NCBI RefSeq assembly: GCF_021261315.1
Contig: NZ_JAJSAX010000001.1
Coordinates: 558,001 to 622,000 of the forward strand
DNA length: 64,000 nt
Reading direction: 5' to 3'
Origin: Epilithonimonas sp. JDS
Lineage (GTDB): Bacteria > Bacteroidota > Bacteroidia > Flavobacteriales > Weeksellaceae
Shown: piece after piece, positions 35,670-62,238 of the stretch
How the letters are laid out: each line of letters begins with the position of its first letter
Numbering within the stretch: position 1 is the stretch's first letter
Translations under genes and position numbers: made by a program
The notes under the pieces: model-generated
Databases searched by the model: none
What the model was told of the DNA's origin: nothing
What the model saw: the letters and a program-made list of their open reading frames with translations, nothing else

Positions 35670-35979
35670 ATTATTTGGATGACACCAAGCTATCTTATCA
35701 TTGCGGTGAAAGAATTATCAAATCAGGTCGCTGTTATGTGAAGTGAGGTAGTAGTTTTATAAAGTGCGGTCGTGGTTTTAACAAACGCGGTGCGAGTTTT
35801 AAAAAAAACAGTATCAGTTTTATAAAAATCGGCGACAACTTTATAAAATACCGAGGTTGTGTTATGAAAGACCACAAGAGTTTTATAAAAGCCAGTGCTA
35901 ATTTTATAAAGACATAGGGCGTTTTATGAAAACAGAAAGCACATTTGAATAAATAGGTGCTGTGTCTGTTTTTCTTTCT
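35670..35979. other. intergenic region filled by a 21-bp array
   Basis: 310 bases between convergent genes. Nearly all of it is the degenerate 21-bp tandem array described separately (35690-35935). No open frame or clear terminator was found. Confidence 0.7.
35690..35935. repeat. degenerate tandem array, 21-bp period, GTTTTATAAA core
   Basis: Cores at 35754, 35775, 35796, 35817, 35838, 35859, 35880, 35901 and 35921 are 21 bases apart (20 for the last), with weaker ones at 35733 and 35712. The core consensus is GTTTTATAAA; the 11 bases between cores vary but tend to have CGGT in the middle. Confidence 0.85.
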
Positions 35980-58981: not shown

Positions 58982-59014
58982 GAAAGCCATTCTTTACGGA
59001 TGGCTTTCTTTTTT
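58982..59014 (+). terminator. terminator after degP
   Basis: GAAAGCCAT (58982-58990) pairs with ATGGCTTTC (59000-59008), then six T. Confidence 0.85.
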
Positions 59015-59041
59015 GGGTAAATTTGCGATTCGAAAATCTAA

Positions 59042-60259
59042 ATGAAACTTTTCAACTCTTACATCAAAACATTCAAAGGGCTTTCCCGGGAAGCTTGGAT
59101 GTTGTCTATCGTAATGCTCATCAACCGTTCTGGCTCGATGGTTTTGCCATTTTTGGGTGTTTATATGACAGACCATTTGAAGTTCAGTTTGGAGAATGCG
59201 GGAATCGTTTTGAGTTTTTACGGCATCGGTTCTGTGCTGGGTTCTTACTTGGGCGGATTGTTGACGGACAGATTTGGAGAATATTACGTGCAATGCTGGA
59301 GTTTGTTTTTGAGTGCGCCGATATTTCTCATCATTCCATTTTTTCCGAGTATTGAAATGATGGCGTTTCTGATTTTCCTTCAAAGCACAATCAGCGATAC
59401 ATTCCGACCTGCGAATTCTGTAGCGATTACCAAATATGCAAGACCAGAAAATCTGACGAAAGCTTTTTCATTGAACCGAATGGCCATCAATCTTGGATTC
59501 TCGATTGGGCCAGCCTTGGGCGGAATTCTATCTGGGATTTCTTATAATTTTTTGTTTGTGGTAAATGCAATCGGCGCTTTGGTTGCCGGAATTATTTATG
59601 TTGTGTTTTTCCGAAAGAGAAATCAAATTTTTCGTGAGAAAAAGAGACTAGAACCTGAAAAAAAGGTTGAGAACATCGCAACGAAATCACCTTACAAAGA
59701 TTTTCCGTTTTTGATTTACAGTATTTTGTGTGCTGTCTTTGCGGTTTGTTTTTTCCAATTTTTTAATACGATTCCATTGTTTTATAAAGACGTGGCGAAG
59801 TTGAGTCAAAGTACGATTGGGTTTGTTTTGGGCTATAGTGGATTTATCATTGTGTTATTGGAAATGCCTTTGGTAAGCATTGCAGAACGGACTTTGAAGA
59901 TTCCACAAATCTTATTCATTGGGATTGTGATGGCTGGAGTATCCTATCTGATTTTGCTTTTGGGAAGTAATGTTGCCTTGCTCTTACTTTCGATGACGAT
60001 ATTGTCTGTGGCTGAGATTTGGGTGCTTCCGTTTATGTCCACTGTGACGGCTTTGCGCGCTGAGCGGGGAAACAAAGGTGCATATATGGGACTGAATGGA
60101 ATTGCTTTTTCCTTCTCGTTTATCTTCACGCCGTTTTTGGGAACTTATGTGGTGAGTCAATTTGGGTTTGACAGTTTGTGGATTGGGTCGTTTGGTGTGT
60201 TGGCGTTGTCGGCGGTTTTGATTTATATTGTGGTGAAGAAAATGATTCCGACGCGGTAG
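59042..60259 (+). CDS. MFS transporter
   Basis: 405 residues with 12 hydrophobic segments. The start has MKLFNSYIKTFKGLSREAWML, then TDRFGEYYV (MFS A-motif area) and RPANSVAITKYARPENLTKAFSLNRMAINLGFSIGPALGG, typical of the drug-exporter (DHA1) group. The substrate is unknown. A 21-bp array begins at its stop codon. Confidence 0.88.
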   Translation: MKLFNSYIKTFKGLSREAWMLSIVMLINRSGSMVLPFLGVYMTDHLKFSLENAGIVLSFYGIGSVLGSYLGGLLTDRFGEYYVQCWSLFLSAPIFLIIPFFPSIEMMAFLIFLQSTISDTFRPANSVAITKYARPENLTKAFSLNRMAINLGFSIGPALGGILSGISYNFLFVVNAIGALVAGIIYVVFFRKRNQIFREKKRLEPEKKVENIATKSPYKDFPFLIYSILCAVFAVCFFQFFNTIPLFYKDVAKLSQSTIGFVLGYSGFIIVLLEMPLVSIAERTLKIPQILFIGIVMAGVSYLILLLGSNVALLLLSMTILSVAEIWVLPFMSTVTALRAERGNKGAYMGLNGIAFSFSFIFTPFLGTYVVSQFGFDSLWIGSFGVLALSAVLIYIVVKKMIPTR

Positions 60260-60530
60260 TTGAATATCGTTTCAGGTGCAAGAATATTCAATCACAATGC
60301 AAGAATATTCTACCACAACGAAAGAATATGAAGTTACATTGCAAGAATATTCTTTTACAAGACGAGAATATTCAGTTACATTGCAAGAATATTCTATCAC
60401 ATCGCAAGGATATTCAATCACATCGCAAGGATATGAAGTTACAATGCAAGAATATTAAATCACAACACAAGAATATTGTTTTACATCGTGAGAATATGAA
60501 ATCGTGATGTAAGAATATTTGTTGAGAGAT
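60255..60530. repeat. tandem array of 13 units, 21-bp period, GAATATTC-like core
   Basis: GAATAT cores start at 60262, 60282, 60303, 60324, 60345, 60366, 60387, 60408, 60429, 60450, 60471, 60492 and 60513: one 20-base step, then eleven 21-base steps. The left half of each unit (GCAAGAATATT) is conserved; the other half varies between types such as CAATCACA, GAAGTTACA and CTATCACA. Confidence 0.92.
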
Positions 60531-60693
60531 TCAATAATTGGACAAATCGTGTTTGGATGGGGAATCTGCAACCTGACTTGAACGTATCCCGATGTAAAAT
60601 CGGGAGGGAACGGAAGGCGGATAAGTTGCCCAAATAATTATTTTCGAACCAATGCGATAAAAAAACTATTTTTGTTCCACTCAAATTTGAACA
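60260..60693. other. intergenic region: 21-bp array and structured element
   Basis: 434 bases between two plus-strand transporter genes. The first 270 are the array of 13 units (60255-60530) and the next 80 the family B element (60560-60642). Two overlapping open frames across the array arise only because a 21-base unit keeps reading frames open. Confidence 0.75.
60560..60642. repeat. structured intergenic element, family B, copy 2
   Basis: Outer stem GCAAC (60568-60572) with GTTGC (60625-60629); inner stem TCCCGAT (60587-60593) with ATCGGGA (60599-60605). Flanking text CTTGAACG and GGCGGATAA with GCCCAAATAATTAT matches 30585-30670. Confidence 0.65.
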
Positions 60694-62238
60694 ATGAATC
60701 CGGGAACTGTTTTATTATTATTCGTATTCGCCTATTTTATTGGGCTTTTGGTAATTTCCTATTTTACAAGTCGCAACTCCGACAACCAGTCTTTTTTCAT
60801 CGGAAACAAGAAAAGTAAATGGTGGCTGGTGGCGTTTGGGATGATTGGGACGTCGCTTTCGGGCGTGACGTTTATCTCCGTTCCAGGCACGGTCGGGAAG
60901 ATGACGGCGGGCGATTATGTGTTTGGCGGTTTCGAATATTATATGATGGTGATTGGGTTTTTCATCGGTTATTTCATCGTGGCGGGCGTTCTTCTTCCGC
61001 TTTATTACCGGATGAATCTGACTTCGATTTACACTTATTTGGGTCGAAGGTTCAATGTGGAGGCGCATAAAATCGGGTCTTTGTTTTTCATTATTTCCAG
61101 AGCGATTGGGGCGACGGCGAGGTTGTATTTGGTGGTAAATATTCTTCAAATATTTTTGCTTGAGAATCTTGGCGTTCCGTTTTGGGTAACGGCTTTTGTG
61201 TTGCTTTTGATGATTCTGCTTTATACGTTTGAAGGTGGCGTGAAAACGATTGTGATTACGGATACCTTGCAGACGTCGTTTATGATTTTGAGTTTGATTG
61301 CGTGCATCGTTTATATTTTGTCAAATTTGAATTTATCATTTGGTGAAGCCTACTCGATTTTGGAGCAAAAGCAGTACACGCATTTCATTAATACTGACAT
61401 CAATTCCAAAACTTTTTTCCTGAAAACCATTCTGGGCGGGATGTTCATCACGATTGCGATGACGGGTCTTGACCAGGAAATGATGCAGAAAAACATCTCG
61501 GTGGACAACCTGAAAAACTCGAAAAAGAATATGCTGACATTTGCCGGAACTTTGCTTTTTGTGAATCTGGCGTTCCTATTTTTGGGTGGTTTGCTTTATC
61601 TTTTTGCGATACAAAATGGTGCAGTTTATGGCGATGGCATTTTCGGTTTCAAAGGTGCCGATGGACAAATCAGCAACATAATGGGCGACGACCTTTTCCC
61701 AGCATTGTCTCTCGGACATTTTCCGATGGCGCTTTCTGTTATTTTCATCATTGGATTGATTTCCGCCTTGTTTCCGTCTGCTGATGGGGCTTTGACGGCG
61801 GTGACGAGTTCTTACTGCGTTGACCTTTTGGGCTTGAACGAAGACCAGCAAAAAACCGAGAAACAAAAGAAAAGACTGAGAATGAAAGTTCATTTGACTT
61901 TCACGGTGATATTTTTTGCGTTGATTATGGTTTTCAAAGCTATCAATGAGAAATCGATTGTTTACCTGATAATGGAAATTGCGGGTTACACTTACGGGCC
62001 ACTTTTGGGATTATTTGCTTTTGGGATTCTGACGAAATTTACGATTGTAAAAAAGTATTCGATATTGGCTGTGACGCTACTTGCGCCGGTTTTGACTTAT
62101 TTGATTAATCTTTATGTGACGAATAATACGGATTACAGAATTGGGGTGGAACTGATTATTCTGAATGGGTTTTTGACGTTTGTGGGATTGTGGTTGGTAA
62201 GGTCTAAGAGGAAAATTGAAATTAAAGTTTCAGAGTAA
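60694..62238 (+). CDS. sodium:solute symporter (SSS family)
   Basis: 514 residues with about 13 membrane helices. Family text: SFFIGNKKSKWWLVAFGMIGTSLSG, FEGGVKTIVITDTLQT and the conserved TGLDQEMMQKNIS near residue 260, then FPSADGALTAVTSSY. Na+-driven uptake of a sugar, amino acid or similar compound; the substrate is unknown. A single gene. Confidence 0.9.
   Translation: MNPGTVLLLFVFAYFIGLLVISYFTSRNSDNQSFFIGNKKSKWWLVAFGMIGTSLSGVTFISVPGTVGKMTAGDYVFGGFEYYMMVIGFFIGYFIVAGVLLPLYYRMNLTSIYTYLGRRFNVEAHKIGSLFFIISRAIGATARLYLVVNILQIFLLENLGVPFWVTAFVLLLMILLYTFEGGVKTIVITDTLQTSFMILSLIACIVYILSNLNLSFGEAYSILEQKQYTHFINTDINSKTFFLKTILGGMFITIAMTGLDQEMMQKNISVDNLKNSKKNMLTFAGTLLFVNLAFLFLGGLLYLFAIQNGAVYGDGIFGFKGADGQISNIMGDDLFPALSLGHFPMALSVIFIIGLISALFPSADGALTAVTSSYCVDLLGLNEDQQKTEKQKKRLRMKVHLTFTVIFFALIMVFKAINEKSIVYLIMEIAGYTYGPLLGLFAFGILTKFTIVKKYSILAVTLLAPVLTYLINLYVTNNTDYRIGVELIILNGFLTFVGLWLVRSKRKIEIKVSE

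Follow-up and report, generated by a model that had tools for sequence, protein, structure and literature searches.

A 21-bp direct-repeat array was found on the forward strand at 60257 to 60528 of the window (the whole stretch of 64,000 nucleotides analysed). It falls in a class of such arrays that is best exemplified by those immediately 5′ of HTH_26 genes in Bacteroidota. The array is a real direct-repeat array of two helical turns per unit, its phase apparently selected, and we consider it with moderate confidence to be a putative DNA platform on which a sequence-specific protein would occupy one asymmetric 21-bp site per two helical turns. On such a platform, successive protein copies would lie on one face of the helix and could bind cooperatively. 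The HTH_26 protein probably binds the array upstream of its own gene and controls that gene, and arrays without a linked gene, that of the window included, would probably be bound in trans by a regulator of this kind or else be kept or decaying relics of HTH-array cassettes.

Structure and setting of the window array

The array comprises 13 units (pooled family consensus tGcaAGAATATaatTTncaGa) and stands between an MFS transporter gene (PF07690; 59042 to 60259, forward strand), which ends at the array, and a sodium:solute symporter (SSF) gene (PF00474; 60694 to 62238, forward strand). Its first unit, of 20 bp, spans the MFS stop codon. An earlier note on this DNA had described 13 cores, the last 12 of them exactly 21 bp apart, and this description was borne out: (i) the core list over 60257 to 60528 gave one 20-bp interval followed by eleven of exactly 21 bp; (ii) Tandem Repeats Finder returned period 21 at 60277 to 60477, with the 42- and 63-bp multiples reaching 60503; and (iii) a scan over all periods from 9 to 45 scored the array at z = 16.1. 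Since the best noncoding array of any period other than 21 reached z 8.1 in the window and 800 kb of sampled DNA (two genomes), the window array is far beyond chance. Noncoding arrays with z ≥ 6 in the same sample numbered six of period 21 and one each of periods 15, 33, and 44; outside the sampled DNA, a simple ACTA repeat in locus L078 scored z 16.4. The pooled GAATAT unit keeps AATAT, with a TT about half a turn further on.

A palindromic core, also proposed from the window sequence, was not recovered. Five of the 13 units carry an exact GAATATTC (by-eye count), and two-fold symmetry across the array was no better than in column shuffles (p = 0.34). Cro/C1 dimers usually bind palindromes, and the non-palindromic units thus count against the platform reading; palindromic dimer sites were considered for a larger set of arrays and set aside, 18 of 19 being not significant. 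The further proposal that the array begins at the MFS stop codon holds for the window and for three related genomes (G021, G003, and G015), but at the orthologous position of G019, G001, G022, G020, G007, and G008 the array begins farther downstream, behind other sequence. The window's genome (G000) and G021 share 78% identity over 271 and 272 bases spanning the array.

On the forward strand at 60667 to 60674 lies TATTTTTG, similar to the flavobacterial -7 promoter box (consensus TAnnTTTG). Because this box is kept in 18 of 19 orthologous sequences whether the array is present or not, the array is not the core promoter. Nor does the array have the makeup of a CRISPR array, as its 21-mers are contiguous, with conserved positions in both halves and no unrelated unique spacers, or that of an iteron origin, as it is flanked by the MFS and SSF transporter genes with no replication initiator gene. 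PADLOC returned no match for two HTH proteins or two array-neighbour proteins. A second array of the window (35712 to 35942, forward strand) has the same 21-bp period with an unrelated unit (about GTTTTATAAAAnnC.Gtg..a; TTTTATAAAA core) and lies between convergent genes, one PepSY-like and one of TauE/SafE type.

Orthologous sites and exchange of units

A sequence-only model, R1, was built from four units and used for the genus and family searches. It identified two GAATAT-type arrays in the window's genome and, at E 0.001, one or more matches (some of them weak) in 18 of the 23 genus genomes; across the family, at E 1e-6, 53 of 296 genomes, belonging to 8 of 33 genera, had matches. The genus matches map to three orthologous intergenic sites: site A, between the MFS and symporter genes; site B, flanked by a lipoprotein-like gene and by pepE, which encodes a dipeptidase; and site C, 3′ of the polynucleotide phosphorylase gene pnp. 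The exceptions were two G007 contigs, a G021 contig end, and four weak matches (two in G004, one on G018 C1, and one on G020 C31). GAATAT-type arrays occupy 10 of the 21 A sites and, at both B and C, 8 of the 22, with absence uncertain at site C of G018 and G007 (readable for only 484 and 215 bases, respectively, owing to contig ends) and with weak R1 matches (E 6e-9 to 2e-4) at four B sites scored as array-free (G005, G012, G018, and G006). Two units were found at site A of G011. The arrays run sense to MFS at site A and to pnp at site C, and antisense to pepE at site B.

The MFS orthologue is present in 21 of 23 genus genomes. In one of these (G013:C6, locus L087) the MFS protein is 99% identical to that of the window, yet the spacer holds other sequence and no array, so the gain or loss of the site A array between these two genomes was probably recent. 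The site C array extends to a second genus, g39, in which pnp adjoins the array in four loci (L251, L252, L255, and L256). Arrays in L071 and L082, missed by the first array finder, were detected by the all-period scan; neither finder detected an array in L074 or L075, two loci chosen for their weak matches. Short palindromic repeat pairs (GCTCCTACGGAGC type, about 60 bp apart) were seen by eye beside many arrays at sites A, B, and C, including site A loci L091, L090, L093, and L097.

Some of these sites hold arrays of other units. At site B, arrays with other units and a period of 21 or 42 were detected in 7 of 22 genomes (G002, G007, G009, G010, G011, G016, and G017; z 6.1 to 18.5), and site C of the window's genome holds an HTH gene with an array of another unit type (z 17.1). 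Thus, the array sites and the period persist while the unit gets exchanged. The unit of a genus HTH-linked array (the L225 group) is matched by the arrays that G007 and G017 have at site B (z 4.6 to 7.1), and gene-less arrays can therefore carry an HTH-linked unit; G007 also carries an L225-group HTH gene, apparently frame-shifted.

HTH_26 genes with upstream arrays

An array of 21- or 42-bp period was found directly upstream of a small Cro/C1-type HTH gene (Pfam HTH_26) in 20 of 22 distinct loci, which consist of 9 genus homologues and 16 named-genome loci with three common to both sets. This pairing lay outside the view of the window sequence alone and was for that reason absent from the earlier note. 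In the window's genome, the second array family is found immediately 5′ of a gene encoding a 124-aa HTH protein; when this protein was searched against 148 family genomes, seven homologues were identified in four genomes, and all seven have an upstream array of 21-bp period, with several unit types represented. Nine strong homologues were found by an alignment search of the genus, each of them with an array, and among 18 weak matches none had an array at z 7 (three weak signals of z 5.0 to 5.6 were noted, one of period 21). The 16 named-genome loci came from Flavobacteriaceae, Chitinophagaceae, Sphingobacteriaceae, Saprospirales, Marinoscillum, other Bacteroidetes, one Pyrinomonadaceae, and one Gastranaerophilales MAG, placing the gene mostly in Bacteroidota. 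Fourteen of them have an array of z ≥ 7 within the 420 bases upstream (12 of period 21 and 2 of period 42), with no array of z ≥ 7 elsewhere in the full fetched loci. Control genes in sampled stretches gave an upstream signal in 5 of 574 cases, four of which are accounted for by three arrays of the same class; the fifth (L187:18054) is in apparent coding sequence.

The two loci with an HTH match and no adjoining array were L232 and L240. An upstream signal in L240 (z 6.7, -664 to -518) was left uncounted because it does not adjoin the gene, and the HTH match there spans 44 residues. In L232, a Saprospirales MAG, a small gene (89 aa) and one resembling pnp were seen by eye to follow the array-less HTH gene; in the genus, pnp immediately precedes site C.

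The HTH-linked arrays consist of 7 to 20 tandem non-palindromic units. All 18 aligned HTH proteins match PF13443 (HTH_26) at E 0.001, and those of L225, L190, L193, and L197 pass the gathering score. The L226 protein, of Epilithonimonas arachidiradicis, is 115 aa long. An AlphaFold model of the HTH protein (mean pLDDT 78.8) predicts a Cro/C1-like HTH with extra C-terminal helices, and the closest solved folds are SaPI2 Stl (Z 8.1, 64 residues, 1.9 Å) and CylR2 (Z about 8), the fold being a common one. When the proteins were paired with their units, protein pairs below 60% identity had for the most part unrelated units (114 pairs; z 0.28 on average, at most 5.0). Similarity of HTH protein and unit gave Mantel p-values of 0.025 (identity) and 0.052 (recognition helix) with orthologues included, and of 0.14 and 0.32, respectively, without them; co-evolution of recognition helix and unit was accordingly set aside, there being no signal beyond orthologues. 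Neighbour genes, compared by eye, are not common across the HTH loci save among the close relatives L225 to L227. Viral data gave the HTH protein one partial match among viral contigs and, in three phage records, HTH matches that were short and weak. A gene for a WYL/WCX-domain regulator was observed 3′ of the HTH gene in G022 (L193 1954 to 2883; L194 406 to 1335), with a similar arrangement in G005, L225, and L227. Among the literature matches listed, from a search with subscription journals largely outside its scope, none described HTH genes paired with 21-bp arrays in Bacteroidota.

How far this link reaches to the window array was examined at the gene and unit levels. The window array shares with the HTH-linked class an exact 21-bp period, at least seven units, and an intergenic position, and it does not lie directly upstream of an HTH_26 gene. 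An HTH gene was detected neither beside it nor in the retrieved sequence around sites A, B, and C, except at site C of the window's genome with its other unit type, nor within 1.5 kb of the array in 18 newly found GAATAT-type loci. The window array was filed as an array without a linked gene because neither it nor its site A orthologues adjoin an HTH gene. Between the GAATAT unit and the genus HTH-linked unit of the L225 group, a weak and at most suggestive similarity was measured (z 3.1, p 0.002, pooled, the best of 19 comparisons); an initial z of 8.4 between the window array and one HTH-linked array was discarded, as a stricter comparison gave 2.5 and the pooled one 3.1. The L225-group HTH subtype was absent from the window's genome among the strong matches of the genus alignment search. 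These results weigh against the platform reading, as do the array-free A sites, the array-less loci L232 and L240, and a protein-unit correlation confined to orthologues.

Phase, alternative readings, and known systems

Unit spacing was measured by a flexible-spacing search, in which intervals of exactly 21 bp made up 484 of 494 in 44 GAATAT-type arrays, 191 of 195 in 20 HTH-linked arrays, and 26 of 30 in three other arrays; these counts are biased toward 21, as the arrays were detected by phase and other spacings were penalised, so the pairwise comparisons weigh more. At site C, the 228-bp array has 13 substitutions and no gaps between G017 and G022, compared with 25 substitutions and 7 gaps in the 163-bp flank; G017 and G005 likewise differ by 13 substitutions and no gaps in the 228-bp array and by 21 substitutions and 9 gaps in the 161-bp flank. 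The difference between array and flank has a Fisher p of 0.002 (G022) and 0.017 (G005), the two pairs sharing G017 and not being independent. Among the HTH-linked arrays, L200 is set apart from L226 by 23 substitutions over 272 bp and from L225 by 39 over 276 bp, in both cases without a gap, and L225 and L226 differ by 38 substitutions and one 3-bp gap; the alignment of L227 with L226 was poor, with 11 gaps. The two paralogous HTH-linked arrays of the window's genome have 33 substitutions between them, with gaps only ahead of the array. Between G015 and G003, the site A alignment has gaps of 42 and 84 bp, both in whole units, and one 1-bp gap near the array end. Gaps that are not multiples of 21 occurred in two global alignments (G000 against G021 and G019 against G001), and these two were counted neither for nor against the phase claim.

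The interval counts, the whole-unit length changes, and the slower, indel-free site C arrays agree with the suggestion of the earlier note that the 21-bp spacing is selected, as would suit a two-turn platform, and the comparison of unit number between related genomes that it had recommended yielded the whole-unit differences of G015 and G003. Replication slippage, which it had offered as another origin, can explain unit number but not the retention of phase. It had also held that homologous loci with neither the array nor a trace of selection would speak for neutral slippage: 11 of 21 A sites are indeed array-free, but in the sequence comparisons a trace of selection is present at site C, where arrays are kept.

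The alternative that survives best, though we regard it as rather unlikely, is that the gene-less arrays are neutral relics, left from HTH-array cassettes or from slippage, which recombine between units and decay without function. Such an origin would fit the patchy occupancy of the sites, the whole-unit differences of G015 and G003, array L180 of the window's genome (which has an HTH-linked unit with no HTH gene detected there), and the stop codon contained in both G021 homologues of the HTH protein. It is harder to square with site C arrays that change more slowly than their flanks and without indels, with a phase held in nearly all intervals despite diverged units, and with a post-pnp site that keeps its array in a second genus.

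A transcribed RNA element, in the form of hairpins or RNA-binding-protein sites in the MFS 3′ untranslated region, is improbable. The window array does lie 3′ of the MFS stop codon, and its predicted folding exceeds that of shuffles on either strand (z -4.3 and -4.8), as does that of some other GAATAT-type arrays (down to z -4.5). The RNA hairpins proposed in the earlier note are nonetheless not general to the class: in the 19 HTH-linked arrays the mean fold z was -0.75 and -0.43; the conserved site C array of G022 gave +0.4 and +0.2. Rfam at gathering score returned 0 matches in 59000 to 62000, orientation to the adjoining genes varies between the sites, and an exact 21-base period is not obviously needed by RNA. 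Least of all do we expect the array to encode heptapeptide repeats (21 bases being 7 codons): although frames through the window array are partly open, the best frames lack a stop in 9 and 11 arrays out of 26 of the GAATAT type, and synonymous-looking substitutions were noted by eye in the other array family of the window's genome, no frame is stop-free across all 26 (38 to 147 stops per frame), each of the six frames of the HTH-linked array L229 contains stops, and AATAT is kept at every position, and hence at all codon positions.

Returning to the putative protein-bound platform, its period is constant over largely unrelated units and distant families of the phylum while the units turn over, which is unusual among bacterial repeats and points to one geometric rule of two helical turns per site. 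If binding holds, an arrayed regulator or scaffold system would be added to Bacteroidota chromosomes, and unannotated intergenic repeats would be explained; the paired HTH gene makes the class testable with one protein, one array, and a spacing series. More tentatively, it is possible that Bacteroidota chromosomes carry a widespread unnamed system of distinct HTH protein-array pairs, in which each small HTH protein would assemble in helical register on the 21-bp array of its pair. Fixed intergenic sites would be reloaded over evolution with the units of different pairs and the system would serve as a chromosomal landmark, silencing or partition-like scaffold, its unit specificities diverging so as to prevent cross-binding between pairs within a cell.

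Links to the origin and to dif were tried and dropped. Clustering near the origin was suggested by GAATAT-type arrays about 420 kb or less from dnaA in G015, G022, and G000, but it is contradicted by G017 (C1:798k versus dnaA at 2430k) and by G019 (C1, +480 and +883 kb); a scan for a dif-like pattern gave about as many matches as its reversed control. A 24-bp sequence near GTCCTATAATTTATATTATGTTAA was observed in 10 of 10 genomes searched (G000, G003, G004, G005, G007, G010, G015, G017, G019, and G022), and it is probably not dif because it is not opposite dnaA in three one-contig genomes.

Several known systems resemble the 21-bp arrays in part. The partition or centromere arrays of plasmids that work with only one small DNA-binding protein, as in pSK1 Par and R388 StbA, have a spacing of about 11 bp; they share with the HTH-linked arrays one small DNA-binding protein gene, upstream direct repeats, and helical phasing, whereas the arrays here are chromosomal, have 21-bp units, and in some cases lack a gene. 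The L225 HTH protein had no match in 72,556 plasmid records, and the window lies on a 1.44-Mb contig, which does not suggest a plasmid centromere. The iterons of plasmid replication are protein-bound direct repeats of about two helical turns; unlike them, the arrays here are chromosomal and intergenic, adjoin no replication initiator gene, and belong to several unit families per genome. Phage-type Cro/C1 repressors (SaPI2 Stl, CylR2, and SinR) are similar in their HTH fold and in having repeats directly upstream of the gene, but they use few palindromic operators in place of many tandem non-palindromic units in a 21-bp register. In the accessible part of its description, the TAACTGA heptamer of Beggiatoaceae, Cyanobacteria, and Bacteroidetes likewise forms short intergenic direct-repeat arrays proposed to be binding sites; it differs in its 7-bp unit, its position close to start codons, and the post-transcriptional role proposed for it (PMC4679880). 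RbpB-bound multicopy sRNAs, as far as the accessible text describes them, did not resemble the 21-bp arrays (PMC11697453). REP/BIME elements with their RAYT transposases are similar in placing repeats near genes, and at about 1 kb from array L180 there is a gene for a REP-associated transposase; these elements are palindromic, unlike the tandem non-palindromic 21-bp units.
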